DNA of 64,000 nucleotides, taken from assembly GCA_951799445.1 (NCBI GenBank), contig OX637295.1, positions 3,100,001 to 3,164,000 on the forward strand. Reading direction: 5' to 3'. Below, piece by piece: positions 11,492-63,152 of the stretch. The position numbers and the translations under genes are program-made. This stretch comes from Pseudisothecium myosuroides. Lineage: Eukaryota; Streptophyta; Bryopsida; Hypnales; Lembophyllaceae. The notes beneath the pieces were generated by a model. The model was given only the letters and a program-made list of their open reading frames with translations, did no database searches and was not told where the DNA came from. Position 1 is the stretch's first letter. Every line of letters begins with the position of its first letter.

Positions 11492-11602
11492 TCATTGGCG
11501 CTTCGAAGGAGGTCTCCACTTGGAGGAGCCGCCATCCCCCATGGGACTAGACTTGGACGGAGGCCTCCACTTCGAGGATCCCCCATCCCCCGTCACGGCC
11601 AT
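11492..11602 (-). CDS. Small repeat protein, copy A (36 aa, two 17-residue repeats)
   Basis: ATG at 11602 reads M-A-V-T and then two copies of GDGGSSKWRPPSK joined by SSPM. It ends K-R-Q and TGA at 11492-11494. The frame is supported by comparison with the four other copies: same start context ATGGCCGTG, same terminal R-Q-stop, and almost only synonymous changes in the repeat codons. A TATA box lies about 306 bp upstream. There is no signal peptide or membrane segment. The product is small, basic and rich in Gly, Ser, Pro and Lys. The function is unknown. It could be a small structural or nucleic-acid-binding protein or a peptide precursor. I recognise no family. Confidence 0.6.
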   Translation of the reverse strand: MAVTGDGGSSKWRPPSKSSPMGDGGSSKWRPPSKRQ

Positions 11603-11907
11603 GATTGCAATTAGCTGGCTCTCTGAGGGCTTCAGTAGACTTCTGAAGCTCTCTTGAAGTGCAGGAGGCTCTACAAGCTGGCTTGGATCAGCTCGGTCAC
11701 ACTTCTATTTCAAACTATTGAAAGAATGCCACTCAGATCGATCAGAAGCTAAAGACGTATGCCAAATCGGAACCGCGGGTGTAAGCTAAGGTCGATGTAT
11801 AGATTGCTGCAGCTAGCCTCTTTGCTTTGTGTCACTGGATCACTCAGCTGAGATTTTTTTGAAGAATTGAATGACTCTTTGGTTCATTCTCTGTAACTGT
11901 GGTACTC

Positions 11908-12500
11908 TTTTATACTTTCCGATGCATGTTAGGATCTAGACTGTTCAAATTACGCGGACTCGGTCAGCGGACATCCCCGAAGACCAAAGTTGATCAAGCG
12001 CATGCAGCTTCGAATTGCATTCAAAAGGAAGTTGGTGTTGAGATTCCACATTCGTGTAGACCGGCGCAGGAGGCGAAGCAACGCAATACACGGGAGGTGT
12101 CGTCCAATGAAGACCCAAACTTGCAAGCCGCAGTAGTTGACGGCGGAAGTTACTTCCTCCAAGGGAGAATGGAAGAGCAGCGACTGTTTCATAGAAAAGG
12201 GAGGTGAAAATTACCAATATTTGGTCAAAATGGTCAGAGACAGTTGATTCTCGGATAGTCTGCCGCCACGAGTCGAAACGAGCCCCACTTCTTTTTTTTC
12301 GATCTATTGATCAGAAGATTTTATTGCAAAAGGAGAGTACAACGACCAAGCTCGTCCCCGCAATAAAGTGAATCGGCCCCCACTTCCGTACTGCTGCCAC
12401 ATTCCATGTTGGAGTGGAAAATTCCTCGGCCGGGTCCCGCTGCGAGCATCACGGACGTCAGCATGCGCACTTGTCGACTGGGAACTGTTCCACGAAAACC
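11908..12500 (-). promoter_or_regulatory. TATA box and conserved upstream region, copy A
   Basis: On the minus strand TATAAAA lies at 11914-11908. Upstream are the conserved blocks shared with the other copies: one reading TGACC(G)AGTCCG on the minus strand near 11960, and near 12440-12470 a block with the minus-strand word GCTGACGTCC. TGACGTC is the core recognised by plant TGA/CREB-type bZIP factors. Confidence 0.55.
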
Positions 12501-12701
12501 ACGAGTTTCTCGCCATGCGAACAAAAGCATGAGCCAAATCAGGTGACTACTGCCACTAATTAGACTTCAATCGATTTCTCAAGGTCTTTGTGAGTCCTCC
12601 GGGAGTCCGGGGGTGAATACATTCATAACTTGGTGTGATTCACAAGCACTTACTACGTTAGCTTGATTAGTGTCAAAGACCAAAATTATGTAATAGAGCA
12701 G

Positions 12702-13012
12702 ATGGCGAATTTCATTAAAGTGGCGGTATTCCGTGACTTTGGGCATTTTTAACAGTTCAGACTGCACAGTCTGAACTGTTTTATCTGTACATGAATCTAT
12801 ATATGTTTTAGATTTCTGAAATCTACACCTGTCCTAGATATTTAAAATCTTGACAATTCCTAAATTTTTCAGACCGTGCGGTCTGATATCTATACTAATC
12901 TTAGATTTCTGAAATCTATAACTATCCTAGATGTTAGTAATGTAAGCCTGTCCTACATGTCACGGTCTGAAAATGGCACATGGATTGTCGCCATTTTAAT
13001 GAAATTCGCCAT
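12702..13012. mobile_element. MITE 1 (about 311 bp)
   Basis: The ends are inverted: ATGGCGAATTTCATTAAA at the left and its complement at the right. A 4-bp direct duplication, GCAG, flanks both sides. A perfect 14-bp-arm hairpin, AACAGTTCAGACTG-CA-CAGTCTGAACTGTT, lies at about 12750-12780. There is no coding capacity. Confidence 0.85.
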
Positions 13013-13339
13013 GCAGGTATTAGTATGTGAATTGAAATGACCCGTATTGTCAATTCGAGGACCGATACCTGAACATTAGTATTAGGGGAAACAAGAATCT
13101 AAAGGAATTTGAGTCTGTTTCTCAGAGATTTGAGTAAGCATGCTTAGATTCTTGAATGAGCCTGAACAAAGGCGTATGTGGTTACTGTACTACTGTGGTG
13201 AGCAATATCAGGATAATGCGAGTTCTAATGTGTGGACCTGATTGGTCATGGTCAACAGTAGCTGGATGAAAGTACTGTGACACAGTTTCGCAGTGGTTGC
13301 AAGCCAGGCCTCCGTCGATTGCAGGAGCTTGTCAGTCCC

Positions 13340-13990
13340 CTTTTTGGATCGATGTGGCATAGTGGGGTCACCATTGGAGCTTTTCGCCACTCTGCCCGGC
13401 TGATGCATAAGCATGCTCTGTATTCGGCACACCGCAGCTGCAATCTGTACGTGACAACCGTCCTCCACAGAATTGATTCAGAATCTTCCTTGTGAGGCAT
13501 GGCGGCATGGCGCAAGGGCTATTTCTGCTGCAGCAGCGCCTCTGGTTGGTTAGTTCCTCAGCTGGCTCAACAAGAAGGACTGCATGTACGGACGTGCAAC
13601 TTCTTTCAATTCTAGTTCTCTATTTCTACTACTGATTGGAAGCATCGCAGGGATGATCTGCATTGCTGTGCAAGAATGAAGAAATTCGATCGCAGTTCAG
13701 ATTATCCCTGTCAACTGAAGAAGGGGACCAGGGTAGTGACCGAGAGCCGACAATCTGGCGACCGGGAGGGACAAACGAACGCGATTGATCGGTGTAGAAC
13801 GGGAACCTGCAAGTCCCACTTGCGGCACACTGTTGCCTCTCGGGAAACACACTATTCCTTCTCGCGAAATTGTTCTCCGAATCGTCTGTTTTTCTCACTT
13901 GGGCCTGTAGAGACTTCGGTGGGTCAACAATGTCCAAGACTGAATCTGCGGACCTCGTTCACTCATCGCAGACTTCTGCATGTGCCCTTT
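13340..13990. repeat. Second repeat module, copy 1
   Basis: The words TGTGGCATAGTGGGGTCACC and ATGAAGAAATTCGATC, together with the flanking text, recur near 17900-18400 and 31090-31670 in the same order. The copies diverge by indels and no frame is preserved across them, so I treat the module as non-coding repeat DNA. Confidence 0.6.
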
Positions 13991-15227: not shown

Positions 15228-15389
15228 TCACTGACGCTTCGAGGGAGGTCTCCACTTGGAGGAGCCGCCATCCCCCATGGGACTCGACTTGGACGGAGGC
15301 CTCCACTTGGACGATCCTCCGTCGCCCATGGGGGAAGCCTTCGACGGTGGTCTCCACTTCGATGATCCCCCATCGCCAGTCACGGCCAT
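15228..15389 (-). CDS. Small repeat protein, copy B (53 aa, three 17-residue repeats)
   Basis: ATG at 15389 sits in GCCACCATGG, a very good eukaryotic start context. The product is M-A-V-T, then three copies of GDGGSSKWRPPSK separated by ASPM and SSPM, ending R-Q and TGA at 15228-15230. Third-base changes between the repeats (GGC GAT GGG, GGC GAC GGA, GGG GAT GGC; TCA TCG, TCG TCC, TCC TCC) leave the peptide unchanged. There is one more 51-bp unit than in copies A and E, an in-frame change in repeat number. TATA lies 251 bp upstream. The function is unknown. Confidence 0.65.
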   Translation of the reverse strand: MAVTGDGGSSKWRPPSKASPMGDGGSSKWRPPSKSSPMGDGGSSKWRPPSKRQ

Positions 15390-15639
15390 GGTGGCAATTA
15401 GCTGCCGGACTGAAATTTCAAAACTCTGGCCGGTCTGCAAGCTTGGATCGGATCAGATAGCAAGAGCTTTCAGTTCACAGTGCGAATGGATCAATTAGAA
15501 GCTGGCTTCGAGTGTCAAATTGTTGCTCCGGGTGTTCGGTAGTTCGATTTATCACTGGCTTCCGCGCGCGTCGAGCTTGAGTTTGTGTTGGTCGATCACT
15601 CAGATGTTAGTGTTGTGATAGAATGAGAGTGTGATGGTC

Positions 15640-16215
15640 TTTTATACACGTTGTGATTCATGCTGCAGCGATCTCTGTTCAAAGTAGGCGGACTTTGTCA
15701 GCGGATGCCTGATCTTGACATACCGATGAATTGGTCCATTCCAACGCCGCTTCAAATTTCAAATCGCCTTCCAAGGAAGTGGGTAATGATCTGACAGTCA
15801 GTGGCCTGGCCGGAAGGACATTCGTGTTGCACGGCGCTGCGCCGGCGAGGGCAACCAGCAACGCGAAACATGCGACGTGTTGATCGTCCGAAGCCGAAGC
15901 CGTTAATTTATTAGTCAGTTCGAGTTGGTCGCAGGGGATTTTACTCTTCTCCAAGTGTTGGAAGTCAGAGGAGGAGTTCTGGGCGGGGGTTTCAACTTCC
16001 AAGGAAGATTCAATTCGACGGGTCACTGACTAATTGTATTTGGTCAATTAGACGGTTACGCACAAACCGTTGGTCAATTGGGTCACAGACACATGACTGA
16101 TTTCTGAAGGAATAAGTACGTATTCTGTCCTGCTGCCTGATGACGAATCGAACCTTTTCGTGGTCGGGTCCCGCTGCCGACATCATTGGCGTCAGCGTGA
16201 GCAGCTGTTGAAGAC
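15640..16215 (-). promoter_or_regulatory. TATA box and conserved upstream region, copy B
   Basis: Minus-strand TATAAAA lies at 15646-15640. Farther upstream is GCTGACAAAGTCCGCC, shared with copies C and E, then AACACGTCGC near 15870 (ACGT core) and GCTGACGCCAATGATGTC near 16190. Preservation of these blocks while the surrounding DNA has drifted suggests regulatory function. Confidence 0.5.
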
Positions 16216-16339
16216 TCTTTCCACATCGGGTATGCGCGCGGGTTTATGATCTTTTGGCACTTAATTACTTAATGGAGCATTGGATTAGTTGACATTCATT
16301 GTTCCTATGTGTTGCATAGAATACTTTCTTGACTTTGAA

Positions 16340-16460
16340 AGCAACATCTATCACACTTATAGATTCAGAAATCTAGGACAATTGAACATTTCAAACCAGC
16401 CACTCTAAACTGCAAAATTGCCAAAATTAAGGAATTTTGCCATTTTAACAAAATTGTCCA
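16340..16460. mobile_element. Partial MITE, right-end fragment
   Basis: It contains the internal text GAAATCTAGGACAATTGAAC and a right terminus reading CCATTTTAACAAAATTGTCCAT. It matches the right part of the MITE at 18405-18691 and lacks a matching left end. Confidence 0.6.
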
Positions 16461-16495
16461 TATATGCTAACTACTTATGGCAAACAACTAGTGTT

Positions 16496-16811: not shown

Positions 16812-17115
16812 ATGGCCAAATTCATTAAAATGGCGGGATTCCGTTAATTTGGCACTTTTATTAGTTCAGAGCCTCAAGTCTAAACTATTTTTTTGTACCA
16901 AAATCTATACCAGTACTAGATTTCTGAAATCTATAAAAATCTTAGATTTTTCAAACTTTTTGGTCTAATATCTATGCTAGTCAGGCTAGATTTTTGAAAT
17001 CTAAAATTGACCTAGATGTTAGAAATGTACACTTGTCCTAGACTTTATAAGGCTAAAGAAGGAATTGAATGGGAAAATGGCGGATTTCATATGCCATTTT
17101 AACGAAATTTTCCAT
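16812..17115. mobile_element. MITE 3 (about 304-bp subfamily)
   Basis: The left end is ATGGCCAAATTCATTAAA and the right end AACGAAATTTTCCAT. Internal AGATTTCTGAAATCTA palindromes match MITE 1. The flanking 4-mers do not match, so the target duplication has decayed or an end is misplaced. Confidence 0.75.
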
Positions 17116-17414: not shown

Positions 17415-17466
17415 AGGTGTAATTTTTCCATCACTGGCACAAGCCACTCATACTTCAACCGTGATA

Positions 17467-17776
17467 ATGGCAAATTTCATTAAAATGGCAGTATTCCATG
17501 TGCCATTTTCACACTTTGACATCTAGGACACCTATACATTGCTAACATCTAGGGTAGTTTTAGATTTCAAAAATCTAGAACTATCATAGATATCAGACCA
17601 AGTAGTCTGAAAAATCTAGGATTGGTATAGATTTCAGATATCTAGGACAATTGTAGATTTCAAAAATCTAGTACTAGTATAGATTTTGGGACAGAAAAAA
17701 TAGTTCAGACTAGGCAGTCTGAACTGCTAAAAGTGCCTAATTAACGGAATACCGCCATTTTAATGAAATTGGCCAT
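17467..17776. mobile_element. MITE 5 (310 bp)
   Basis: Left end ATGGCAAATTTCATTAAA and right end TTAATGAAATTGGCCAT, with flanking 4-bp duplication GATA. Internally it is in the opposite order to MITE 1: the GTTCAGACT hairpin lies near the right end, so the element is inverted relative to MITE 1. Confidence 0.88.
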
Positions 17777-18400: not shown

Positions 18401-18404
18401 TATA

Positions 18405-18691
18405 ATGGGCAATTTCGTTAAAATGGCGGTATACGATGTGCCATTTTCGAAGCGGCCACTATGAACTGCAAAAGAGACATCTAAAAGGGATAAAGATTTC
18501 AAAAATCTTGGTCTTTTATAGATTTCAGAAATTTAGCACAACTGTAGATTTCAAATTGCACAGTTTGAACTTTGAAAGCAACATCTAGTAGATTTCAGAA
18601 ATCTAGGACAGTTGAACATTTCAAAGCAGCCGCTCTGAACTGTGAAAACTGCCAAAGTTAAGGAATTTTGCCATTTTAACGAAATTGCCAT
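18405..18691. mobile_element. MITE 6 (287 bp)
   Basis: Left end ATGGGCAATTTCGTTAAA, right end TTAACGAAATTGCCAT, and 4-bp duplication TATA. The interior has two GAAATCTAGGACA blocks. Confidence 0.88.
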
Positions 18692-20188: not shown

Positions 20189-20350
20189 TCATTGGCGCTT
20201 CGAAGGAGGTCTCCACTTGGAGGAGCCGCCATCCCCCATGGGACTAGACTTGGACGGAGGTCTCCACTTAGACGATCCTCCGTCGCCCATGGGAGAAGCC
20301 TTCGACGGAGGTCTCCACTTCGATGATCCCCCATCGCCCATCACGGCCAT
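20189..20350 (-). CDS. Small repeat protein, copy C (53 aa, three 17-residue repeats)
   Basis: ATG at 20350 gives M-A-V-M, then GDGGSSKWRPPSK three times with linkers ASPM and SSPM, ending R-Q and TGA at 20189-20191. Apart from MAVM against MAVT the protein is the same as copy B, although flanking DNA has many indels. The start is fixed by the ATGGCCGTG context common to all five copies, and an upstream stop precedes it in frame. TATA lies about 268 bp upstream. The function is unknown. Confidence 0.65.
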   Translation of the reverse strand: MAVMGDGGSSKWRPPSKASPMGDGGSSKWRPPSKSSPMGDGGSSKWRPPSKRQ

Positions 20351-20617
20351 TGCAATTAGCTCTCGTACTGAAACTTTTAAACTTTCGGGGGCTGCTTTCC
20401 CGTCTTTAAGCTTGGATTAGCTAGATCGAACTGTTATCTGAAAGAATACTTCTCAAACTGATCAGAATTCGGCTTCGAGTGTCAATTTGTTGTTCCGGCG
20501 CGTGTGCAAGTACAAGCTAGTTCAATATAATTATCAATTGCTTCCGAGTCGAGCTTGAGGTTGTACTGGTCGATCACTCAGGTGAGCTTGTCGTGGCAGA
20601 ATGAAAGTGTCATGGTC

Positions 20618-21130
20618 TTTTATACGTTCTGATTCATGCTGCAGCGATCTCTGTTCAAATTACACGGACTTTGTCAGCAGACACCTGAACTTGGCAGACC
20701 CAAGGTTTGATCCATTCAAACGCAGCTTCAAGTCGCATTCCAAGGAAGGAAGTGCATACTCTTGAAAGTCAGTGACATGGAAGAACAATCGTGTTGAACG
20801 GCGCCGGCGAGGCCGAGCGACGCGAAACATGCCACATGTCGTCCGATGACGACCCGAAGTAGAAGCCGTTATTTGTTCAAGTTGGTCACAGGGGATTGGA
20901 ACTTACTATGATCCTCCAAGGTTGGAAGTCAGAGGAGTAATGAGCGCGGATTCCAAGGAAGATTCAATTCGACGGTCACTAATATTGTTTGGTCAATTCG
21001 AGTTACGCACAAACGGTTGGTCAATTTGGTCATGAAATATCCGGCCCACATTTTGTACGTATTCTGCCCAGCTGGATGATGACAAACGGAGCCTCGCTGC
21101 CGACAGCACGGGCGTCAACATAAGCAGCTG
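20618..21130 (-). promoter_or_regulatory. TATA box and conserved upstream region, copy C
   Basis: Minus-strand TATAAAA lies at 20624-20618, preceded by GAACG as in copies D and E. Upstream are CTGACAAAGTCCGTG near 20670, GGACGACATGTGG near 20830 and a TTGACGCCCGTGC block near 21110. Confidence 0.5.
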
Positions 21131-21358: not shown

Positions 21359-21668
21359 ATGGCCAATTTCTTTAAAATGGCGGTATTTTATTAATTTGGC
21401 ACTTTTAACAGTTCAGACTGCACAGTTTGAACTGTTAAATATATACCTAAATCTATACTAGTCTTAGAATTCTGAAATCTACACTTGTCTTGAATATTTG
21501 AAATCTATATTAATCCTAGATTTTTCAAACTGTGTAGTTTGGTATCTATATTAGTTCTAGATTTTTGAAAGCTGTCACTGACCTATATGTTAGTAACGTA
21601 AACTTGTCCTAGATGTCACGGTCTAAAAATGTCACATAAAATACCACCATTTTAATGAAATTTGCCAT
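21359..21668. mobile_element. MITE 7 (310 bp)
   Basis: Left end ATGGCCAATTTCTTTAAA, right end TTAATGAAATTTGCCAT. The hairpin GTTCAGACTGCACAGTTTGAAC near 21410 matches MITE 1 with one mismatch. Flanking 4-mers ATTC and GTTC match at three of four positions. Confidence 0.85.
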
Positions 21669-21669
21669 G

Positions 21670-24155: not shown

Positions 24156-24413
24156 TGTTAGAACAAATGTGATTGGACATTGCTCTGAACGTTGAAAGCG
24201 ATCACTAGCTGTAGATGATATCTGTTGTTGGATGTTTCTTGTTTCTGTGGATGACTTTAGTCGTCTCTCTGCCTGGCACTATGACTCCCCGCCTTCCCGG
24301 CATTGTATGTACTGTCTTTGTGGTATCGCCTTCATGGCTATGGCGCAGCGTAATAAAGGAGCTTTGGTAAACATGTGTTATGAGAGTACTTGTCTGGTTT
24401 CTTAGTTGCAATA
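24156..24413 (+). repeat. 5' LTR
   Basis: Starts TGTTAGAAC and ends TTGCAATA. It contains GTAATAAAGG, a likely polyadenylation signal, near 24350. The boundary is set by identity with the 3' LTR and by the flanking GATAT. Confidence 0.92.
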
Positions 24414-24427
24414 GGTTATGGGCCCAC
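24414..24427 (+). other. Primer-binding site for an initiator tRNA-Met fragment
   Basis: GGTTATGGGCCCAC follows the 5' LTR directly. It is the reverse complement of GTGGGCCCATAACC, the anticodon stem-loop of plant initiator tRNA-Met, and does not match the tRNA 3' end (which would give TGGTATCAGAGC). The geometry fits priming by a tRNA half, as known for Drosophila copia and yeast Ty5. Confidence 0.8.
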
Positions 24428-24557
24428 AGTTAGTTGCGTTAGTTGCGTTGAGAGGATAAAGTCAATCCAGAAAGTAGGACACAGAAGAGAAATCGATATT
24501 CTGAGGAAGTTAGTGAAAACCCCGAGAGGAATACAATTCAGAGAGAGTTTACGGAAG

Positions 24558-27500
24558 ATGGCTCAGAATATGGCTACGTCGTCAAAGATCAAAGAGGTCA
24601 ACACAGTCGAGAGATATGATGGTTCGAATTTTGCATTATGGAAAATGCACATGTCGTTCATCTTTAAGTCTCGTGATCTGTTTATGATTGTGAACGGAAC
24701 TAAACAGAAACTCGATACTATGAGTGATGATGAGAAGTCGCAGTGGGAGCAGCGAGATAAGCAAGCTATCGTAGCTATCTTAGGATCGATTGATTCCTAC
24801 CACAAACAAGAAGTGATCAATTGTGAAACCTCTTGTGAAATGTGGACACAGCTTCAGGCTTATCACGATAAGCACTCCGATGAGTGTACAGTAGCATTGC
24901 AGGAGAAGTATTTTTGTTGCAAGCTAGGTGAGGGGGATTCAATAGCAGTATACATTAGTACACTGCAAAAGCTGTACAAACAGCTCAATGATTTGGGAGA
25001 AACGATAACTGAAAAATCGTTGATAGCTAAGATTCGATGTGGCCTTCCACCATCGTACGATCCTCTTATGCTTGCGTGGGATAGTGCTCCAGCGACAGAG
25101 CAGACATTAAAAAATCTGCAGATGCGTTTGGTTAAATTTCAGAACAAAAAGAAAGATCGGGAAGGATTGTCTGATGCTCAAGCAGATTCGGCATTCTTCA
25201 CGAAGAGCACCACGTCAAAACCTTCGCTCACAGTTGAGCAGAAGAAAGAACGAGCAAAGCGTCTAGCTAAGTTAAAAAGGCATTCTCGATGCTATAAGTG
25301 CGGCCTTAAAGGGCATTTCGGGAGAGAATGTGAGCAGAGTCAAAGTTCAGATGAGTCAGTATCACCCAAGCGCCCTCGTAGCAATAGACGGAAAGGCAAA
25401 AATAAAACAAAGCGGAGTCACGCTAATGTCAGTGCAAGTGGTGTCCACGAAGTTTTATTTGAGCAGTCGTTGTCGTCATCATCATCATCGGCTTTCTGTG
25501 TTAGTTTAGAACAGCAGGAGTCTAGTGATTTTTGGTTTGCAGACTCAGGAGCGACTGAGCATATGACTGACAAGAGACAATGGTTCGACAATTTTCAACC
25601 CGTTGAAAATATGACTTGGAGCGTAGCAGTCGCAGATGATCGCAAGCTATATGTCAAAGGAATTGGTGATATTATTGTTCAGGCTAAGGTGAACGATACG
25701 ATCAGTTCTCTCAAACTTAAGAACATTTTGTACGTCCCTAAGCTACGCAGAAATCTAATTTCGACCAGTAGACTAACAGAGAAGAGAGTTGCGATCTTAC
25801 ATGTAAGAAATATTTGCAAAATGATATCAGAAGATGGATTAGGCCGTTTAATCATGACAGCGCACAAGCACGAAGGCTTATGGCGCATGGATATTCACGT
25901 TGTCACTAATCGAAGCTCAGCTAATGTGGTCAAGTCAAGCGTCGATGTTCATACACCTAGCTCTCGTTCCGACAGAGATTTGCAGAAATGGCACTATCGA
26001 TTGGGCCACGTGAACACACACACGCTGAAACAAATGGCCCGGGATAATGTTGCGATAGGATTGCCATCGCTAGAGAAAGCGAAAGTGAAACTCATCTGCA
26101 AAGGTTGTGCTCACAGCAAGATCCATCGGACTCCATTTCCAGTGAATGTTGAGAGACGAAGGGATTCTAAACCTGGTCAGTTTTTTCATTCTGATATCTC
26201 TGGTCCTTTTCAAGTCTCTTCGCATGGTGGTCATCGCTATTTTGTAACGTACAAAGATGATCACAGTGGTTTCCGTTTTGTATATTTTCTAAAAGATAGA
26301 CAAAACATAATCACAACATTTCAAAGCCTATATCGGCTTGTGAAAAACGAGACAGGGAATAGGATGGTGAAATTACGGACAGACGACGGGAGTGAATATG
26401 TGTCAAAGAAATTTCAGGACTACCTATCTAGAAAAGGCATCCGTCATGAACTCACGGCTCCATACTGCCCTGAGCAAAATGGAGTAGCAGAGCGTGACAA
26501 CCAAACGATAGTAGAAAGTGCACGCTCAATGTTACATCATAGAGGCATGCCGTTGGAATTCTGGGGAGAGGCTGTTAATACAGCAGTATATATACTTAAT
26601 TGTGTCTCTGGCAAGACGACTCTAGGCTCTACACCATTCCAAGAGTGGTATGGAAAGAGACCAGATCTTAGCCACTTCAAAGAGTTCGGTAGTTTATGCT
26701 ACACACATATCCCAAAACAGAGACGTCAAAAGCTGGATAGTAAAGCCAGAGAGGTTATTTTCCTAGGCTATTGTAATACTTCCAAAGCCTACCGTCTGTG
26801 GTGTCCCAAAGGAAGAAAGGTAGTGGTCAGTCACGATGTTATTTTTGACGAGGAGAGCGTTCCAAATTTTGGAACAAGTACAAACGGTTATAAAAACATC
26901 TCGACAGTTGCGGTATTCTTTCCAGAAACTAGCGAGACAGTTGTTACACCACCTCTCGATTTCAACAACGTCAATTCCTCACCTCAATGCGTCAATCTGA
27001 ATGAACAAGGAGATCAGGAGTTTCCACCAATAATCAACATGCAGGAAACTTCTATAGATCGGAATCTATCAAGAGATCGAGAAACTGGTGTACCATTCGA
27101 TATACAGGAAGCGTCAACCAGTGGGAGCAATAATTGAACCAGTGGGAGAAGCGATCAAATTGGTGGGAGCAGCAATCGAACTGGTGGGAGCAGCGATCGA
27201 ACAAGTGGGAGCAGCGATCAAACAAGTGGGAGCAGCGATCAAACAAGTGGGAGCAGCGATCGAACAAGTGGGAGCAGCGATCAAACCGGTGGCAACATTG
27301 CAAGCAACGGGAGCATTGCAAGCCGTGGGAGCCATAAGCCAATGCCGCCAGCATCTTCTGATGACGATTTAAATCCGATATTACGAACAAGGCTAATAGA
27401 AGAATTATACAGTGCAACCAAGCCTACACAGGTGAGTGAGCAGACACAACCAAGTTGTCGAGATGGTAGTGGATTGTCACTGTCCACATCCTGCGTTGCT

Positions 27501-29125
27501 GTTACTGAAGAAGTTCCCGCTAGAAGGATGTCAATTCTACCAGAAGAACCCAAAACTTACAACCAGGCCATCAACAGTGAGTTTAGAGACCAATGGCAAA
27601 AAGCTATGGCTGAAGAGACAGATTCGCTACTTAAAAACGAAACGTGGACCATGGATTTTTTGCCGAAAGGGAGGTCTGTCGTCAAAAACAAATGGGTTTT
27701 TAAAATCAAGGTAAAGGCAAATGGTGCTATAGAGCGATTCAAAGCCCGTCTGGTAGCGAAGGGATTTACTCAAACCCAAGGTATAGACTATGATGAAACG
27801 TTTGCTCCAACAGCAAGAACGGAGACTATACGAGTCATGCTGTCAATTGCAGGAGCGGAAGATTTTGATCTGGTTCAATTTGATATCAAGACAGCCTATT
27901 TAAACGCTACATTACTGGAAGAGATCTATATGGCGTTACCAGAAGGTTTTGAAGAAGAAATATATCGACGTTTTCCAGGTAGTCGAGGCAAAGTGTGTAG
28001 AATACGGAAAGGACTTTACGGGCTAAAACAATCTGCTAGAGGGTGGAACAAAACGTTCTCAGATTTCTTAAAACTGTATGACCTAATCCAAAGTCAAGCA
28101 GATCCGTGTTTGTTCTTTTCAGCAGCAGTGTCCAGGCTCACTCTTATCCTGTGGGTGGACGATGGACTTGCCATGTGCAAAGATAAACAGCTGCTTGACA
28201 AAGTGATTTCATATCTACAGTCAACTTTTGAAGTCACTGTTGGTGATGCTGATGTCTACATGGGAATACATATTAGCCGTGATAGATTTCGGAAAATGCT
28301 CTTTATTGACCAACAGAGGTACACAGAGACTATTTTAAGAAAGTATGGATTCCAGGATGCTTCCCCAGTTTCGACCCCAAGTGATCCGAACGTACATCTA
28401 AGCTATCCCAGGAAAGACGATGACGAAAGCGTTCCACTTTTTCCATTTCAAGAAATTGTGGGATCTTTACCGTATTTAGCAATGCATACTAGACCTGACA
28501 TTGTGTGTGCCGTGTCAACCGTTGCACAGTATGCAAGTAACTATCGACAGATCCATTGTACTGCTGTACAAAGAATTCTAAAGTATTTGAGAGGAACTAC
28601 TGATTTCGGTTTATGTTACTCCTCCGATAACAAGCCAAATCAAACCCTCGTAGCCTATACCGATGCTGATTACGCAGGTGACTTGAACGATCGCAAAAGT
28701 CGGTGCTGATTGTCAATAACGGACTAGTTGTGTGGCTAAGTCGAAAGCAACTCTGCACTTCAAGCTCTACGACTGAATCTGAATATGTGGCCGCATCTCT
28801 TACGAGCAAAGAGGTTGTGTGGACAAGGAGACTACTGCTGGACTTTGGGTACGAGCAGATGAAGCCAACTTCATTACTATCTGATAATCAGTCGGCAATT
28901 CGCCTTGTGCTCAATCCAGAATTTCATAAGCGAACGAAACACATTGACGTCATGTTTCATATTATTCGGGAGTTTCAGATCAAGGGCGAAATTGCGTTAC
29001 TTTACGTTCCTACTCGACTGCAGCTCGCAGACATCTTCACAAAGCCCCTGCCACTTGAGATTTTTCACAAATTGAGACATGCACTCAACATTTGCAAGAA
29101 AGTACATCATCAAGTGGGAGAATGA
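24558..29125 (+). pseudogene. Copia Gag-Pol polyprotein, interrupted
   Basis: The first plausible Met is at 24558 (MAQNMATSSKIKEV). Gag has the copia-type YDGSNFALWKMHM start and a CCHC knuckle CYKCGLKGHFGREC at 25290-25331. The protease has FADSGATEHM near 25540. Integrase shows the pre-integrase HYRLGH and CKGC pairs, then HSDISGPF, RTDDGSEY and NGVAER as the three acidic residues. Reverse transcriptase begins near 27560 and has WVDDG (28155) instead of the usual YVDD. RNase H has DADYAGD, SDNQSAI and HKRTKHID. The frame is stopped by TGA at 27135-27137 in a repeated linker, where neighbouring repeats have CGA. It is shifted after DRKS at 28700, with about four residues of the conserved TSGY region missing. 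After that it continues in another frame to TGA at 29125. Confidence 0.92.
27118..27310 (+). repeat. 21-bp coding minisatellite between integrase and RT
   Basis: About nine units resembling AGTGGGAGCAGCGATCAAAC, one base short of the full unit. In the polyprotein frame this reads as heptads of T-S-G-S-S-D-(Q/R). All three frames are free of stops over most of the array, which produces spurious long open frames on both strands. Confidence 0.85.
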
Positions 29126-29156
29126 GTAGCTGTGATGCTTCTATACGTTCTTACAA

Positions 29157-29166
29157 TGAGTGGGAG
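29157..29166 (+). other. Polypurine tract
   Basis: TGAGTGGGAG abuts the 3' LTR start TGTTAG. An almost identical AAGTGGGAG occurs about 50 bp upstream. This position is expected for the plus-strand primer. Confidence 0.6.
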
Positions 29167-29424
29167 TGTTAGAACGAATGTGATTGGACATTGCTCTGAA
29201 TGTTGAAAGCGATCACTAGCTGTAGATGATATCTGTTGTTGGATGTTTCTTGTTTCTGTGGATGACTTTAGTCGTCTCTCTGCCTGGCACTATGACTCCC
29301 CGCCTTCCCGGCGTTGTATGTACTGTCTTTGTTGTATCGCCTTCATGGCTATGGCGCAGCGTAATAAAGGAGCTTTGGTAAACATGTGTTATGAGAGTAC
29401 TTGTCTGGTTTCTTAGTTGCAATA
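29167..29424 (+). repeat. 3' LTR
   Basis: Same length as the 5' LTR with four substitutions by my count (three transitions and one transversion). Followed directly by the GATAT duplication. Confidence 0.92.
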
Positions 29425-29460: not shown

Positions 29461-29622
29461 TCATTGACGCTTGGACGGAGGTCTCCACTTGGAGGAGCCT
29501 CTATCCCCCATGGGACTAGACTTGGACGGAGGTCTCCACTTGGACGATCCTCCGTCGCCCATGGGAGAAGCCTTCGAGGGAGGTCTCCACTTCGATGATC
29601 CCCCATCGCCCATCACGGCCAT
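29461..29622 (-). CDS. Small repeat protein, copy D (53 aa, three 17-residue repeats)
   Basis: ATG at 29622 gives M-A-V-M, then three GDGGSSKWRPPSK repeats with ASPM and SSPM linkers, ending R-Q and TGA at 29461-29463. One amino-acid change is visible: Gly to Arg in the third repeat (GDRGSS). A copia element sits 32 bp beyond the stop on this strand and could affect the transcript 3' end. TATA lies about 271 bp upstream. Confidence 0.62.
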   Translation of the reverse strand: MAVMGDGGSSKWRPPSKASPMGDGGSSKWRPPSKSSPMGDRGSSKWRPPSKRQ

Positions 29623-29892
29623 GAAGGCAATCTGCTCTCCGAGGACTTAGTGGACTTCTGAAGCTCTCGGGAAGTGCCGGCCACGCTGTAAGCTTGGATC
29701 AGTTAAGTCTTTCGATCAGTTCTTAGAAAGAAATCAATGCGTCTCTGACTGTGTGCATGTGTCAAATTGGAAACTCGGGTGCAAATCCTATATATCAATT
29801 GCTAAAGCGTCTTCAGGTTGTGAGGATAGGTCAGTCAGCTGCGATTGTTGAGGAAGAATGAATGTTTGGTTCATTCTCTAGCTATGCTGCTC

Positions 29893-30410
29893 TTTTATAC
29901 GTTCCAATTAACATCGGCTCTAGACTTTCAAATTTCGTGGACTTAGTCAGCGGACGTCTTGAACGACCAGAAGTTGTTCAAACGCATGCAGCTTGAGATG
30001 GCGTTCAAAGGATGTGCGTCGTCTAACAGTGGTAGATTTGGTATTCATGTAGACCGGCGCTGGCGAGGGCAACGCGATGTATACTCATTTGATCGAAGAC
30101 CCAAATCTGCAAGCCGAACTAGTTGACAGCGGAAGTTACCTTTTTCACTCTTGGAAGAGGAGCAGCACGGGTTTCGTCGGAAAGTGAGATGAAACTTCGA
30201 CAATTACTACTAGTTGGTCAAAATGGTCAGAGATGTTTTTGACTTTGCTGGATAATCTACCGCCAGGAAGTGTATTCCACTTCCGTCATTTAACCGTACT
30301 AGCTAGGTCATTGCTGCCATTTTGCATGATGAAGTAAAATTCCTTGGCGGGGCATGTACCGCTGCGAGCATCACGTCCGTCAGCGTGCGCAGCTGTCGAA
30401 GACTTTTGCC
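29893..30410 (-). promoter_or_regulatory. TATA box and conserved upstream region, copy D
   Basis: Minus-strand GGAACGTATAAAAG at about 29905-29892. Upstream are CCGCTGACTAAGTCCACG near 29945 and GCTGACGGACGTGATGC near 30375, both shared with the other copies. Confidence 0.5.
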
Positions 30411-36386: not shown

Positions 36387-38970
36387 CTAGATCAGGATAC
36401 AATTCGGATGATCCGGGTTACTGAAAGGATCAGACATAACTCTGGCAATCCATATAGGCTTCTCATCACCATCAGCGGGTCGAACTGCAAGAAAATATCC
36501 TTCGAAAACATCACGCGCAATACGGAAAGTTGGCAACGAGCGATCTCGACGTTGCCCCACAAAAGCATCATCTTCAGCAAACTCCTCGCGAACTTCGCCA
36601 TCGTCATCAAGTTCATCCTCCTCTGTCATTTCGATTTGTGTAGAAGGCCAGAAACCTTCGTTTAATGCCTTAGATGGTACAATTGGCTCGATCAAATTTG
36701 CTTTCACCGCCCGCCAATAAAACACCAAATGCTCAAAACATCTTCTGTACTCTCCACTCCTGTCTTCATTGCATAATGCCTACCAATATTTGATGAACCC
36801 TGATATACCCTTTGAAATGTCATCCACGCCCCGCATTGGAAAGGGGGCCACAGGTACAGGTTCCCCACGAGGCTATAGACTCCGTCCTTTAGAGTCTTCT
36901 TGCCACAACTTGATGCCCCCTTTTTCTGGGAGCTAGTCACTATCCGTGCAGTACTTCTTGTACTTCATAATCGGAATACCCGCCGAGTTGAGATAAAACT
37001 TAAATTGTTGCGCCTTCGTATGACCAATAAGTGCTTCTTCCCCTTCCAAAAGCGAGCCTTCTATGAAAGCTTTGAAATCTGGCACCTCCTCAATCAAGTG
37101 AGGAATTGTTGGCACAGAATCAACATCCATGATTCATGAAGGACTTCATCAAAGACAGGATGGTAGGAAAGCTTTCCTTCTTCAATTGCATGCTCCACCT
37201 CCCAAACAAAGCGTCAATATCGTCATGCATGTGCCCCACCAACATGAAACTCACATAAACCTCCCAGAAGATCTTCTTTGCATCCAGGAGTGACCAAAAT
37301 GCAAATACAAACCGGTTTTTGTTGTCTCTTGTGGCATTGTCCATTTGAATGTTGAGAACTGGAGGAAGGGTACTTGGTGGAATCTGGACTTCGGGCTCTG
37401 GCCGAAGTGATGACTTGCACATTTCAGCTCCTTTCAATACCGCTTCAAATAGAGGAGCAGAGCCCGATCCAACAAACAATTCCCGAGAAGAATACTTTGG
37501 AGGGAGTTCAAGGTCTTGTAAGAGCTTCGCTAATGACCCTATCATGTAGAAAGATATCAAGACCGTAATGCGCATAACAGACATCACCATGTCCATGAGC
37601 AATCATTCCGGTCACTGATACCAGCAATTTTGTGAGTCCGTCAAGTTGCTTGTTCTTGTGGGAGAACACAAGAGACGCCATTTTTGCATGATCCATTTTG
37701 TCATGCATGATTGTCAAGCATTTGTGAGGGTAGGCGCTGGACCTATACCAGTTTGCATAATAATTATCTTGATGAGCCCGTGCTGATGCATTATGTGTTT
37801 CCAATAGACGGTCCCATTTCCGTCATAACCCAACCGGAGCGGTCCTTCTCTGTGCTTGATATCTGTCACACTTGGCGCAACGAGCGAAATTTTCTCCTGG
37901 CTTCTTCACAGAGTACTCTGGAAAGTTCAATTTCTTGATCTTGCTGATACTCGAACTTGAGACTTCTTCCAACCCAAACACAGCATTTGCTGCGTTGATC
38001 TCGGGAATAGTCTCTTTCCACGTGAAGGTGGCAGGTAGAACCCTTGACACCACCTTCTCTCCAGAAGGAAGAGAGTGTGTGCGATGAGGCATATGGTCAG
38101 CCAACTTCTCAAGCATGCACTTCAACATTGCTGTGGCTTGCGACGTATGCTTCCAAATCTTATGCGTGCCCAAATTTCTATACAATTGAGCTTGTTCACC
38201 TCTCGCAGCATATCCTTGAAAACGATGGAAGGTGGATTCCGACACACCTGCAATATGTTGCCATGCTGCCATACACACGTCAATCCCTTCGAGAGTGAAC
38301 ACCCTCTTGCTTTGACCGTCACGGTGAACTTGTCGATGCACGTCCAACTTCATGTGGTAGCGAAATTCAAACGTTGTCTTGTGATACATGCGTTCACAAA
38401 AAGCTCAAATCTTCTCTCTTGAAAAAGGTTGGATACAATTGTCCAAGCAGCACACCTTGCTTGAAACAGAATTGATAGACTCCTGAGTGAGTAGATCACT
38501 GGCTTCACACAAGTCGGAGGAGGAGGATTCCTCACAGCGCTCACATACGGTCTCGCACCTAATGAGGTTCCATGCGTGAGGCCTGCCTGCCGACGATTAT
38601 ACTCGTCTCAAACCTTGTGATTGCAGAGGCTTGCTCCATTCAAGTACACCTGTTGAATAGGCCATGCTCAAAGAGAATACTTCCAGTCCTCCGGAACGTC
38701 TCCAACGTCAAGTGACTTCGAGATTTGTACCGCGACAAGAGAATCTCCAAGAGGTCCATCACTACCTAAGACGACGTCCAAGTTCACGCTGTGACAGATT
38801 CCCTCAGCCACGTCCAATCCAATAGCATTGCGCAAAAGGACAACCTTTGTCATCCACAACCATCTGGGTACACCTTCGCAGTCAGGAATGTTGACAATCT
38901 CCCCAGGCACATTTGCAATTTCCTCATTGTCGGAAGAATGCTCTTGGAAAGGATTTTGGATCGCCTCCAT
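36387..38970 (-). pseudogene. Decayed DUF7869-type gene, probably a transposase
   Basis: The likely start is ATG at 38970 (MEAIQNPFQEHSSDNEE). Segments downstream, on the minus strand, follow the order of a family of large plant and invertebrate proteins ending in DUF7869. They are a region with WQHIAGVSESTFHRFQGYA (38389-37823), then DKMDHAKMA (37720) and NIQMDNATRDNKNRFVFAF followed by VSFMLVGHMHDDIDALFGRW (37340-37190). After those come VPDFKAFIEG (37080) and a C-terminal FLAVRPADGDEKPIWIARV (36500). The D-N-x-x-x-D-N-K-N and GHxHxDIDAxF words are the signature. The segments lie in different frames without convincing splice sites at some joins, for example near 37545-37560, so the copy is probably broken. 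The family's function is not established. A transposase role is inference from its repetitive nature and the palindrome array upstream. Confidence 0.6.
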
Positions 38971-41894: not shown

Positions 41895-42610
41895 ATGTGT
41901 GATAAAAAAAAATGGGAGGGAATGAATCAAAATACTAAGTCATGGATTGAATTTTTTTATATTTGTGTATGGATTCACTTGTGATAAAAAAATTGGGGAG
42001 GGAGTTAAGTGATGGAGTGATATTTTTTATGATGGAATTGGGTTTCACTTGTGATAAAAAAAAAATGGGGAGGGAGTTCAGTGATGGAGTGATATTTTTT
42101 ATGATGGAGTTGGGATTCACTTGTGAGTTGTGATAAAAAAATGGGGAGGGTGCTAAGTGATGGAGTGATATTTTTGATGATGGAGTTGGGTTTCACTTGT
42201 GTTAAAAAAAATGGGAAGTTAGTTCAATGATGGAGTTTTATTTTTGAAGATGGAGTTGGGATTCACTTGTCTTAAAAAAAAATGGGGAGCTACTTAAGTG
42301 ATGGAGTGATATTTTTTATGATGGAGTTGGGATTCACTTGTGATAAAAAAAATGGGGAGGAAGTTAAGTGATGGAGTGATATTTTTTATGATGGAGTTGG
42401 AATTCACTTGTGATAAAAAAATGGGGAGCTAGTTAAGTGATGGCGTGATATTTTTTATGATGAAGTTGGGATTCACTTGTGATAAAAAAAATGGGGAGCT
42501 AGTTAGGTGATGGCGTGATATTTTTTATGATGGAGTTGGGTTTCACTTGTGATAACAAAAATGGGGAGGGAGTTAAGTGATAGAGTGATATTTTTGATGA
42601 TGGAGTTGTA
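41895..42610. repeat. Tandem array, about ten units of roughly 70 bp
   Basis: The unit contains GATGGAGTGATATTTTTTAT, GATGGAGTTGGGATTCACTT, GTGATAAAAAA and ATGGGGAGG. Poly-A length varies between units. Reading frames inside it are by-products of the repeat. Confidence 0.9.
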
Positions 42611-54373: not shown

Positions 54374-57061
54374 ATGAATGTGTATTTGTCACCTATTGTT
54401 GATGAATTGAATCAATTATGGACAACTGGAGCAGAATGTATTGACGCCAACAGTAAAGAAAAATTCATCATAAAGGCTATACTCTTGTGGACTATGCATG
54501 AATATCCAGGTTATGGTGTGGCATCTTCATTGCAAACGCAAGGTTTTTTGGGATGTCCAATTTGTGGACCAAAGCATGTGAATTCCTACTCTGCAAAGGA
54601 GTTAGGTAAAATTATATATCACGGGTATCGGAAGTATTTACCAGAGGGCCATCCATGGGGGTCTAGTGAATTTGACAGTTCCTTCAATGGTAAGGGAGAG
54701 CCCACTTTGAAGCCACCGTTAAGGATGGATGATGGGATTGGTTAGCAAAATGGGAACAAGTAAACTCTGGTGTTTTACAACTCTCCAAAAGTGGCATAAC
54801 GGGTTGTTCAAAATTGTACGAATTAGAATATTGGGCGGTAAGTACTCATCACACTCCACTAGTCGTATAATATATGATACTGCTAGATAATGAACAATGG
54901 GTTTGGGTCATGAATTAAAAAGAAAAATTTACATGTATTTGACGTGCAATGCATTTATTTGTTTATGTATTAATTACTAAAACTTATTGATTTTACATGC
55001 AGGACTTGAAAATTTGACACTTGCTTGATCCAATGCATATTGAAAAAAATGTTTGCTCATCTCTTTTCAAGACTTTTACAAATGCTAAAGGTACAAAGGC
55101 AGATTCTGAGTCACAACGAATTGAAATGGAAAAAATGGGAATCATGAAGGACATGTGGATGCAGTTTGGTAATGTAGCCCTGCAAGCACCTTGGATTTTT
55201 ACAAAGAATGAATTCAACCAGGTCATTGATGTATTGCAAACTACAAAGGCTCCTCGAAATTATGGGTCTACTTTTGAATACAAGTTTGTAGACAACAAAA
55301 TTACGGGAATGAAGACTCATGATTATCACAACCTATTGCACGATTTGTTGCCAATTGCAGTACAAGATGCTTTGAATGATAAACTACGGAGCATTGTTTA
55401 TCATTTGGGAGAACTTTTCCGTTGGATATGTGGCAAGGAAATTAAAAATTTAGAGATTTCTAAGATGAAGACAATGGCGGCTGAGTTGATGTGTGATATG
55501 GAAAGAAACTTGCCTCCAAGTTTTTTTGACATTCAAGTGCATTTGATATGGCATTTGGTAGAAGAAGTGGAGTTGTGTGGACCCGTTTCATCTCGTTGGA
55601 TGTACTTTTTAGAATGGTATATGAAAGACCTTAAAAGTTGGGTTAGGCAGAAAGCTCGTCGAGAAGGTTCAATGGCCGAAGGATATATTCTAACCGAGGC
55701 AATGCACTATGCGACAGAGTACACAACTCGATTGGCACCGTCTGCACCACAGTTGTGGAGGCTCAAAGAAGACCTACGTTTATTAGAAATGGTATTGCCC
55801 AAAGCTCATAAATTGCGCCGCCTTGATAGAGATGCAACGGGGAGGATTTTTCTTGAACAAGTTCACAACTTATTGTTAAAGAATGATCCTTCTATGTCAC
55901 ATTGGAGAGAACGTTTTGCTAATGAATTCTCAAGCAACAAAGTAGATTTTGGTGAATGGACCCTTAATGAAATGAGAAGCCAAATCAGTTTGGGTAAATC
56001 CCCACAAGATCTTGAATATAATATTGCATTAGGTCCACATCCCAAAGTCAAATTCTTTGCACACATGTGGGCAGCTGGCAAGTACTTAAGAGTTGTTGCT
56101 AGAGATATTGGGAAGAAGACACAAGATACAGGTATGAACATAAACATATTATTATAAAATTTATGTATAATTATGTAGCATTTGCCTTTGTTGCACTATT
56201 TCTTTAATATTTTTTTGCTAATTTGAATTTTTGAAGTCCTTGAAATTACCTTGTCCCTAATATGTGTTCATATGTACAAGTATAGCATGTTCTTTCCATG
56301 ACTTGGATGCCAATGGAGAACCTTGTACAATTGAGTATTATGGTAAAATTCTCAATATAGTTGAAGTGAAATTCACGTCTTTCACAACAATATTATTGAA
56401 AAAAAATTGATATGATAGTAAACCAACCTCTCGTGGAAACCCTAGAGTCTTAGTTGATGAATGCAAGTTCATGCGAATACGTACAAGCAACTTTATGCCA
56501 TCTCACTTGGCTTCACACGAACCTTTTGTTTATCCTCTTGATGTAGATCAAGTGTTCTTCATTGACGATAGGCTTAATAAAGGTTGGCATCTTGTTGTAC
56601 CCTATGAAGCGAGGTCTAAGAAAGTTTTATATAGAAGGGATACAAATATTGATGTTCCTCAAGATGAGGAATATATACTTGTTGCAGATGATGACAGCAA
56701 TACAACTGTTTAAGCACTTCATTTGAGGCATATAGAAAACAGGGAGGACCTCGTATCTACGGAGTTTACAAATGAAGAAGAAGATGAATTCACTGATGAT
56801 AGTGGAGGAGAAGGTGCATATAAATAGGAAAGACATTTACCTGAATCATCAAGTCGCTATGAAGACTGCGATTTTGATAATATTGACTTTGATGTTCAAG
56901 CCGAGGAGCAAGTACAAATGCCAATAAGACGCCCAAGAGCAATGTTTGAAAGATATATTGGAGAGCACTTGATGGGCGAGGAGAACTTATCAGATTCAGA
57001 ATTAGAAGGTGCAGATGTGTTACAAGATGTCATTGGCTATTCAGGGAGTGATAGGGAATGA
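54374..57061 (+). pseudogene. CACTA/En-Spm transposase (TNP2-DUF4218-DUF4216), decayed
   Basis: 54374-54740 encodes the TNP2-type MNVYLSPIVDELNQLW, then LQTQGFLGCPICG. A frameshift near 54735 moves the frame to WLAKWEQVNSG and GITGCSKLYELEYW, with a GTAAGT donor at 54839. The next exon begins at 55004 and carries the family word LLDPMHIEKNVC. Just before it is an in-frame TGA where the family normally has Arg (CGA to TGA). DUF4218 follows (CGPVSSRWMYFLEWYM, ARREGSMAEGYILTEAMHYA). After an intron at about 56132-56283 comes DUF4216 (YYGKILNIVEVKF; VYPLDVDQVFFIDDRLNKGW). In-frame TAA at 56711 and TAG at 56825 interrupt an acidic tail that runs to TGA at about 57061. The N-terminal third of the gene is not visible upstream. 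No CACTA termini were found. Confidence 0.88.
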
Positions 57062-59345: not shown

Positions 59346-59449
59346 TCAAACATTATAATGTTTCAATTCGTAAGAAATATTGTTTTTTCTTTTCTTTTAA
59401 TGTAATCTATAATATGTCTAGTTTTTTGAATTTGGATGGTCGCAATAAA

Positions 59450-61400: not shown

Positions 61401-61499
61401 GTAGTGGACCACCCTAATTAAAATAACTCTTCATTTGATCGCATGTCTCCAGCTAAAGTGCACCCCTGAGTGTCCTCCATCTAGAGTGTAGAGACTATG

Positions 61500-61690
61500 C
61501 AGAGTGTTCAATGCCAAGCGTCTCCTGAAATCATTCACTCAATACAGACTGAGCACTGTGACCATACTTCGGAGTAGAGTCAGAAACACTCGTCCAAATT
61601 TTGCAAGAGATTGACCGTTTAGACCAGCAAAGTTCTGTTGGGCTTTTCAGCTTCCAACGACCTATTTTTAATAGGAATAGAATTTGGGTA
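61500..61690 (-). repeat. Fragment of the duplicated unit
   Basis: The text GAGATTGACCGTTTAGACCAGCAAAGTTC, with GGGCTTTTCAGCTTC after it, matches 18855-18910 of copy C. It indicates a sixth, partial copy or the left extension of copy E. Confidence 0.6.
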
Positions 61691-61978
61691 CAGATGAGAA
61701 TGGGTTGTGCAGGAGGGTGTGGCAACTCGAAGATATGGAAGTGTGACTAGACTCACACTAATTAAATTAACGAAATTGAAGATTTCACCAAGTTATTTTG
61801 CACTTGGAATATTAGACACTCCTATCGTGAGTATCGTCCTATCGTCAGAAAGCAGATTGTCTGCAGGTTGCAAAAGATTTGTGAAAATCACCTGTTGCTT
61901 CTTCTGATTTTCTAGCAACCGATCTGGTCCGATCATAATTGGAGGCAGCTATTTATAAAGTACTGAAGTTGAACACAT

Positions 61979-62140
61979 GGGAAGTAGAAGGGGTTACCAT
62001 GTGGAGAAAATTGGACCATTACCACATGGTAACCACCTCTTAAGTGGTAAACTCATAGTAGTTTACCACTTAGAAGGTGGTTACCATGTGGAAAAAATTG
62101 GACCATTCCCACACGGTAACAGCTTCTACTTCCCCTGTGC
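61979..62140. mobile_element. 160-bp hairpin element
   Basis: The outer arms read GGGAAGTAGAAG...GTTACCATGTGG at the left and the complement of GGGGAAGTAGAAGCTGTTACCGTGTGG at the right. The centre (about 62019-62090) is a nearly perfect inverted repeat with 32-bp arms starting CCACATGGTAACCACC and a loop of about six bases. The whole could fold into one long stem, as a foldback MITE or a small-RNA precursor would. No clear target duplication was found. Confidence 0.7.
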
Positions 62141-63035
62141 GAATGTATGCCAGGGGTTGAATTGAAGTAAGGGCATAATAATGGCTAACCAGGGCTTATA
62201 ACATACTCATTAGGAGTTGGAAGTTACACTGTTTCGAAATAGATCTTCTTTCAATTGTGAGTCACCATGGGTCTAAGGATAAAATGGAAAAACCTGAGGG
62301 GAAAATATTCTGGAATGTTCAGTTCATTCCACGACAGTGCCTTACTTGAATGTCGTTACTGGCATGGTTCCTCAATAGGATTACTAGTAGTCACTCGTGA
62401 ATATCATAATAGATCTCATTTGCCCCCGATCGATTGATCACACTGAGGTTCAGCTCAGAAGTAAGCGCCAACGTTGACGCACATGAAGCAGTTGATCGAA
62501 ACGCACATTCAAGTAACTGAAGTACTTTAAAGTCTTTCATAATTCATACAGTTTATTCTGTCGTATAAGGTGTCCAACAAGTGTCTGATCAGCTTGAAAG
62601 CTGTGGTATTAATTTCAAATCGTTAATTATTGTCACAATGCGTGAACAAAGAATCAGTAACTACTCCAATCATCTAAAATGAATCTGTACAAACTAAGAC
62701 GATGTTTGATTTCCGAGATCAAGGATTGTAACTATTGGAATGCATGATCGAGATCTCACTGCATGATACTTCCATATTCTGCCGTATGAGCCAGCTTGCT
62801 GTGGTATTCCATTGCAATGCGTTCTTCGGTTCAAGAACTCATCGCAAGAAAGGAAGAACAATTGACCCCGGAATTGGCCGGGTTTATCTAATGAAGCTCG
62901 AATCCTCGCCTCATTCAGCTGCTTTCGTCAACAGTCGACGATGATCTCGAGCAGTTGTCATGATCCCCACGTGCTTTCGTCGACAGTCGACAGTGATCTC
63001 GAGCAGTTGTCTTGATTGCAACGATCGAGCTACTT

Positions 63036-63152
63036 TCATTGACGAAGGAGCTTCGAAGGAGGTCTCCACTTGGAGGAGCCCCCATCCCCCATGGGAGAAG
63101 CCTTTGACGGAGGCCTCCACTTCGATGATCCCCCATCGCCCATCACGGCCAT
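63036..63152 (-). CDS. Small repeat protein, copy E (38 aa, two 17-residue repeats)
   Basis: ATG at 63152 gives M-A-V-M, GDGGSSKWRPPSK, ASPM, a second GDGGSSKWRPPSK, then L-L-R-Q and TGA at 63036-63038. Two extra codons (CTC CTT) precede the conserved R-Q-stop, an in-frame 6-bp insertion relative to the others. TATA lies about 263 bp upstream. This copy lies more than 33 kb from the rest, yet the peptide repeat is unchanged, while synonymous positions differ. Confidence 0.62.
   Translation of the reverse strand: MAVMGDGGSSKWRPPSKASPMGDGGSSKWRPPSKLLRQ

Follow-up and report, generated by a model that had tools for sequence, protein, structure and literature searches.

The 64-kb stretch of the moss Pseudisothecium myosuroides analysed here (C9:3,100,001-3,164,000 of a 388-Mb assembly; hereafter the window, in whose own numbering its features are given) carries five very small genes, all on the minus strand, that encode two or three copies of a short Trp-containing core. 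Their open reading frames (ORFs) lie at 11492..11602 (copy A, 36 amino acids (aa), two cores), 15228..15389 (copy B, 53 aa, three cores), 20189..20350 (copy C, 53 aa, three cores), 29461..29622 (copy D, 53 aa, three cores) and 63036..63152 (copy E, 38 aa, two cores), exactly where a preliminary description of this DNA had placed them. As it also stated, all five start with ATG-GCC-GTG and end with R-Q-TGA, and copy E, which closes with LLRQ, contains a 6-bp insertion encoding LL. Its single Gly-to-Arg replacement is present in copy D, but a second difference, Met/Thr, occurs at codon 4, which gives MAVTG in A and B and MAVMG in C, D and E. The term 'five-copy family' holds within the window, where profile searches with the repeat unit revealed no sixth copy, but not for the genome, which has at least 25 copies of this type (type 1) plus paralogous types. 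The additional profile matches at 24.1-24.4 kb correspond to the long terminal repeat (LTR) of a Copia element carried by the flank of D, and one further match in the window is weak (E 0.75). Homology between the copies extends over ~0.8 kb upstream of the ORF and, for B and C, ~1 kb downstream; because it reaches well past the ORFs, gene-sized units, and not merely a satellite, have been duplicated whole.

A six-frame search of the genome (E up to 0.001), the counts of which are lower bounds, located 35 places, every one on C9 between 2.85 and 3.44 Mb: 25 of type 1, nine of type 2 and one of type 3. The frame is intact in 22 of the 25 type-1 places, the remaining three being broken by a premature TAG, a frameshift and a lost ATG, respectively. 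Of the intact type-1 copies, 20 have an undamaged first core and terminate in RQ or RL, with core changes in two of these (Trp to Arg in 2882263, Pro to Leu in 2949221); the other two have a degenerate first core. Type 2 reads MGA[QE]-GDGGGSKW[NKS]PS and continues to a total of three cores separated by linkers that are acidic and mostly contain cysteine; of the nine type-2 copies, six are arranged tail-to-tail with a type-1 copy, with starts 2.7-3.0 kb apart. Single-core types were found on C9 at 2.790 Mb (MAGAGCNGDGGGSKWSNGGGGKC), 3.448 Mb and 3.461 Mb, together with three single-core copies at 3.454-3.510 Mb that carry GDGGD[ST]KWKPPKRS (L101-L103, one of them read in part); a fourth motif match, at 3.486 Mb, lies outside the sequence read. 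In the tails of L101-L103 this stretch is followed by a second repeated motif, SVKFRSS or SVEFRN, the available reading of L103 stopping within the tail. An intron suggested by translation of a single-core type found no support in the DNA and was discarded. L104 (C3:41712740-41713110), on another chromosome-size contig, is a paralogue whose three cores are degenerate and whose end is basic. The pattern GDGGxS[KR]W has 105 matches genome-wide, against two for its reversed control; among the matches listed (five of the 105 fell outside the inspected set), the C9 region 2.79-3.51 Mb accounts for all but three, which are on C3, C4 and C6; those on C4 and C6 may be due to chance. Organelle-type DNA is also present in the assembly: by eye, a cox1-like frame is seen in the first 5 kb of a 104,589-bp contig, together with group II introns, and ~105 kb is a typical size for moss mitochondrial genomes; another contig has a plastid ndh-type intron and a tRNA-Leu.

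The preliminary description had proposed purifying selection on a short protein, with changes concentrated at third codon positions, and the data bear this out. Over the 13 core units of the window, the numbers of variable columns at codon positions 1, 2 and 3 are 1, 0 and 10. Repeats within one ORF differ at 4-8 of ~9.7 synonymous sites and at 0-1 of 29 nonsynonymous sites, and the pooled ratio of nonsynonymous to synonymous differences per site (pN/pS) is 0.009 for 11 within-gene repeat pairs and 0.011 for 67 between-gene pairs. Within ORFs, synonymous sites are thus near saturation while the protein is almost identical; it follows that the repeats are of old origin and that the peptide has been maintained. 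At least 14 synonymous and two nonsynonymous events are required, both of the latter in one codon of D, compared with a neutral expectation of 73.8% nonsynonymous (P = 5e-7, assuming independent events). Codon models on trees built from 600 bp of upstream DNA gave a ratio of nonsynonymous to synonymous substitution rates (omega, or dN/dS) far from 1 for type 1 (omega 0.087; log-likelihood -469.87 versus -503.78 at omega 1; 14 copies, 13 distinct sequences) and also favored purifying selection for type 2 (omega 0.213; -500.30 versus -516.19; seven of the nine copies). The type-1 set comprises 14 of the 18 three-core copies, the four excluded being one with a lost ATG, one with a premature stop and two with a degenerate first core; two-core copies lie outside it, as do broken and degenerate copies in both sets, which biases omega somewhat downward.

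Outside the ORFs, the flanks have diverged with many indels, as first described (pair means of 0.31-0.36 substitutions per aligned site and 3.0-4.4 gap openings per 100), compared with 0.04-0.07 substitutions per site and no gaps in the ORFs of B, C and D. When all ten pairs are averaged, the ORF value rises to 0.165, through the shorter A and E, whose units the aligner did not place in register. Nor is conservation equal in all frames: the four other frames scored have pN/pS values of 98.8, 11.3, 4.3 and 0.32. An antisense frame (EGGLHLEEPPS), considered as a candidate after a tblastn search, was rejected, as its pN/pS of 0.32 is expected from shared third positions and relatives keep the sense frame. 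For pairs among B, C and D, the synonymous divergence dS is 0.16-0.29 and the nonsynonymous divergence dN 0.012-0.025, with flank differences per site of 0.16-0.31 (B/C), 0.36-0.40 (B/D) and 0.33-0.45 (C/D). Therefore, dS falls within the flank range for B/C and below it for B/D and C/D, which gene conversion or constraint on synonymous sites could explain. Purifying selection specific to one frame, the mark of a protein-coding gene, is present, and the family is well supported as one of real coding genes under selection.

The genes also share promoter elements in register, all on the minus strand. A TATA box, GTATAAAAG, occurs exactly five times in the 64 kb, once for each ATG, at 11907..11915 (A, 313 bp before the ATG), 15639..15647 (B, 258 bp), 20617..20625 (C, 275 bp), 29892..29900 (D, 278 bp) and 63414..63422 (E, 270 bp); in 100 shuffles of the window the mean was 0.75 and the largest count 4. 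Allowing one mismatch, it is found in 20 of 22 type-1 genes (16 exact) at 240-324 bp before the ATG. Farther upstream, each window copy has a W-box (TTGACC), located at 12223..12228 in A (626 bp before the ATG), 16042..16047 in B (-658), 20991..20996 in C (-646), 30216..30221 in D (-599) and 63775..63780 in E (-628). The W-box motif TTGACCAA is present in 20 of 22 type-1 genes, 599-694 bp upstream of the ATG. By conservation it holds joint rank 5 among 780 8-mers, as scored on the W-box of B at 16042..16047; a second W-box of B (16072-16077) ranks 568 of 780, and C also has a second one (21019-21024). The top conserved block in the alignment of 22 type-1 promoters, TCCGCTGAC..AAGTCCGC..TTTGAACAG, lies just upstream of the TATA box (15675..15706 in copy B). 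Among the seven type-2 promoters read far enough, five have TTGACC and two TTGACA, with an inverted GTCAA element 10-13 bp away in six. Since the copies are paralogues, none of these promoter counts is independent. In B and C, the ORF's own ATG is the first past the TATA box, as it is in 11 of the 20 TATA-bearing type-1 genes. Six A-like copies share an upstream ATG at -285 to -296, which opens only 15 codons in A. An upstream exon encoding a signal peptide was considered and rejected: A, D and E have upstream ATGs, B and C none.

A core of the form G-D-G-G-[SGA]-S-[KR]-W-x-P emerges from 39 proteins with 47 distinct repeat units among them; positions 1, 3 and 8 have one exception each, and linkers vary while the core is constant. 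Part of this motif was built into the search expression, so that known degenerate cores fell outside, and the count leaves out degenerate copies, one type-2 copy (GDRGGSKW) and members found later. Beyond these 47 units, Pro is absent in one single-core member, Asp occupies position 5 in the GDGGD type, and the C3 paralogue deviates at several positions. Six relatives were found on other public contigs in a collection of 5.8 billion proteins. P0001 was recovered with the window peptide alone (E 2.1e-6); a query alignment containing P0001 then gave P0002 (5.8e-15), P0003 (1.3e-11), P0004 (4.2e-6) and, as a weak match, P0005 (0.037), and an alignment holding forms of the other relatives gave P0006 (7.3e-9). 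The improved scores of P0002-P0005 in this last search are circular because the alignment held their forms. Each relative has one to three cores that start a few residues after a methionine (an internal one in P0001), with different linkers and tails; P0001 and P0002 also have in common a C-terminal EDxxNIN-type stretch that is absent from the window copies. Viral contigs yielded no relatives with the single-peptide query, and a viral candidate from the alignment query (L001) was dismissed as a chance GDGGSSKW in a 2075-aa reading frame without a repeat; prokaryote genome contigs likewise yielded none.

In keeping with the initial failure to recognize such a family, no match exceeded the curated cut-offs of Pfam (types 1-4 and five relatives) or NCBIfam (types 1 and 2 and P0003); the only matches were stray ones, at E 0.053 (Pfam, one of ten family members) and 8.2. 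A sequence search of the PDB returned no chains for type 1 or type 2, Rfam gave no matches on the window, and the searched peptide strings are absent from 5.39 million open-access papers, a coverage that excludes subscription journals and supplements.

The window also contains mobile and repeated DNA. The Copia retrotransposon spans 24156-29424, with gag, integrase and reverse-transcriptase matches, a 259-bp LTR match at 98.5% identity and a 5-bp GATAT at both junctions; its insertion point lies ~30-40 bp beyond the copy D stop codon. An element of ~311 bp that resembles a miniature inverted-repeat transposable element, with near-palindromic ends GGCGAATTTCATTAAA and TTTAATGAAATTCGCC, is scattered among the gene copies (12702-13012, 17467-17776 and 21359-21669; partial at 16812-17040 and 18516-18623), and by eye a similar insert seems present in L068. 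ORFs at 37120-37602 (minus strand) and 55021-56157 (plus strand) match DUF7869 and DUF4218 and are probably transposon remnants, while those at 3754-5256 and 5409-6785 (plus strand; 500 and 458 aa) belong to no significant Pfam family and are perhaps one broken mobile gene. Tandem arrays occupy 2243-3555 (unit 67 or 265 bp, ~20 copies of the short unit) and 41936-42608 (unit 70 or 139 bp). With transposable elements among the copies, and the copies themselves clustered, the repeats might be taken for a satellite or a transposon-borne sequence whose frame is open by chance. Frame-specific selection with omega well below 1, promoters in register and diverged homologues elsewhere that keep the frame make this extremely improbable.

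As for the proteins, copy C has no cysteine, an isoelectric point of 11.1, a charge of +6.5 and a top 9-residue hydropathy of only 0.48. No N-terminal signal peptide is apparent from the hydropathy of copy C, the position of the start codon or the sequences of the types. AlphaFold2 with a ten-sequence alignment gave no secondary structure (mean predicted local distance difference test score 61, predicted template modeling score 0.14), and the precursor is accordingly predicted to be disordered; a likeness of DGG-SS-RPPS to the designed Trp-cage was dropped, since AlphaFold2 gives no fold. Net charge ranges from +4 to +8 in 20 type-1 proteins and from -6 to -2 in eight type-2 proteins. The cationic, Trp-containing type 1 could in principle attack microbial membranes directly after cell rupture, and the pI and charge of copy C, the W-box promoters and the multigene cluster would suit such a defence peptide. 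This is nonetheless unlikely: type-2 relatives with the same core are acidic, no helix is predicted, and antimicrobial peptides do not typically show so strict a conservation of individual residues, here with Gly and Asp among them. Predicted disorder, hydrophilicity and the cysteines of type-2 linkers would also be compatible with a stress-protective disordered protein or metal binder, similar to LEA proteins or metallothioneins; as residue-level conservation of a Trp-containing core is unexpected for bulk protectants, type 1 has no cysteine and no Pfam match exists, such a role appears very unlikely.

The reading we favor, tentatively and at somewhat less than even odds, is by analogy: the genes may encode multi-core precursors without a leader, inducible by WRKY factors and acting in the manner of PROPEP or prosystemin. 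In a typical gene, a TATA promoter that includes a conserved W-box would precede a 5' leader of ~210-290 nt (as judged from the TATA position), followed by a single short ORF without interruption. This ORF holds one to three GDGGxS[KR]W cores, mostly followed by xP, the first of which begins only a few residues after the initial methionine, and it has no apparent signal peptide. Stress-activated WRKY factors would switch these genes on, and the disordered precursor would stay in the cytosol until damage or a protease liberated core peptides, which a surface receptor might read as an alarm; multiple cores per precursor and many clustered genes would raise the dose. The data support the reading frame, selection, promoter motifs, lack of a hydrophobic leader, predicted disorder and breadth of the family; transcription, induction, cleavage, release and the receptor are what we infer beyond these.

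Several observations weigh against such precursors. Two of the 22 type-1 genes have no TATA match and one has no W-box at all within 1.2 kb (gene 2949221 has neither the TATA box nor TTGACCAA); the TATA box ranks only 229 of 780 in the footprint alignment, perhaps due to variable spacing; W-box motifs (TTGACY) are not enriched in the window, with 87 seen and 88 expected; and nine of the 20 TATA-bearing type-1 genes have an upstream ATG. No known peptide hormone turned up as a homologue of the family. Cleavage is the most exposed step: the window copies have no dibasic site between cores, and seven of nine type-2 copies have no Lys or Arg between the core Pro and the next core, the other two having a single Lys. 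As type-2 linkers are mostly without basic residues, no single basic-site cleavage rule fits both types; the basic residue common to nearly all cores is the one preceding Trp.

Because most type-2 linkers offer no basic cleavage site, a strong rival is an intracellular multivalent linear-motif protein, in which the uncut chain with its one to three cores would bind a partner, as scaffold or competitor, and linker chemistry, basic in type 1 but acidic and cysteine-bearing in type 2, would tune where or with what. A core that stays constant while linkers swap charge and cysteine content fits this, as do the absence of an apparent signal peptide and the position of the core near the N-terminus in the single-core members read. 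The tiny size and many clustered copies, by contrast, fit a dose-type released product at least equally, and the binding partner is hypothetical. We regard this alternative as possible, if doubtful.

Genes this small are easily missed by annotation, and what began as a hint of five copies has become a family whose core motif is matched 105 times in a single genome, with a strongly selected core and promoter motifs of the defence type. Should the cores act as signals, a danger-peptide system of which no description was found would exist in early land plants, and a 13-residue peptide with a calcium or reactive oxygen species readout would provide a direct assay. In a more far-reaching and rather unlikely version of the precursor reading, this would be an undescribed moss family of leaderless phytocytokines, with up to three cores per precursor and a cluster of ~40 gene copies, which could be an independent counterpart of Pep signaling and possibly supply the missing ligand of moss PEPR-like receptors, the occurrence of which in mosses is reported in a review (PMC11850516) even though Peps are described from angiosperms (PMC13157962).

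Compared with known systems, the family shows, by hydropathy and sequence, no trace of the signal peptide that characterizes secreted plant peptides (CLE, CEP, PIP, SCOOP), and in this lack, judged by hydropathy and start codon, it resembles the non-secretory precursors (PEP, systemin, ZIP1). Repeated Trp-containing cores within one precursor are shared with the BURP-type plant cyclic peptide precursors, which are secretory and rely on a BURP domain, whereas the moss family has neither a leader nor a Pfam domain. The Pep motif is single and lies at the C-terminus of its precursor, whereas the moss proteins have one to three GDGGxS[KR]W cores that begin near the N-terminus; inspection by eye of the window copies and further family sequences showed no single C-terminal Pep motif. 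Systemin is not known to contain a GDGG-W core, and the PPSKR string at the end of type-1 copies is presumably shared with it, in a comparison at the level of the string only. We do not place the moss proteins within either the Pep or the systemin family.

With the SCOOPs, the common feature is a short active motif within a small precursor; the SCOOP12 precursor, however, has a signal peptide and SCOOPs require an SxS motif (both from portions of PMC13157962), whereas the moss family has no apparent signal peptide and no SxS motif was seen in it. Prosystemin is likewise leaderless and has one 18-residue systemin cut from it, according to sections of PMC11756074, and systemin is listed as lineage-specific (PMC13157962, in part). 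Peps are described there as present across many angiosperms (PMC13157962); excerpts of another source group Pep as SGP-rich and give maturation of pro-PEP1 by metacaspases as possible (PMC11371470). The likeness to PROPEP/Pep lies in the absence of a signal peptide, a property that PEPs share with systemin (PMC11756074), and in clustered genes with W-box promoters: the AtPROPEP genes are clustered, and WRKY33 binds the W-boxes of AtPROPEP2 and 3, as described in passages of PMC12893677.

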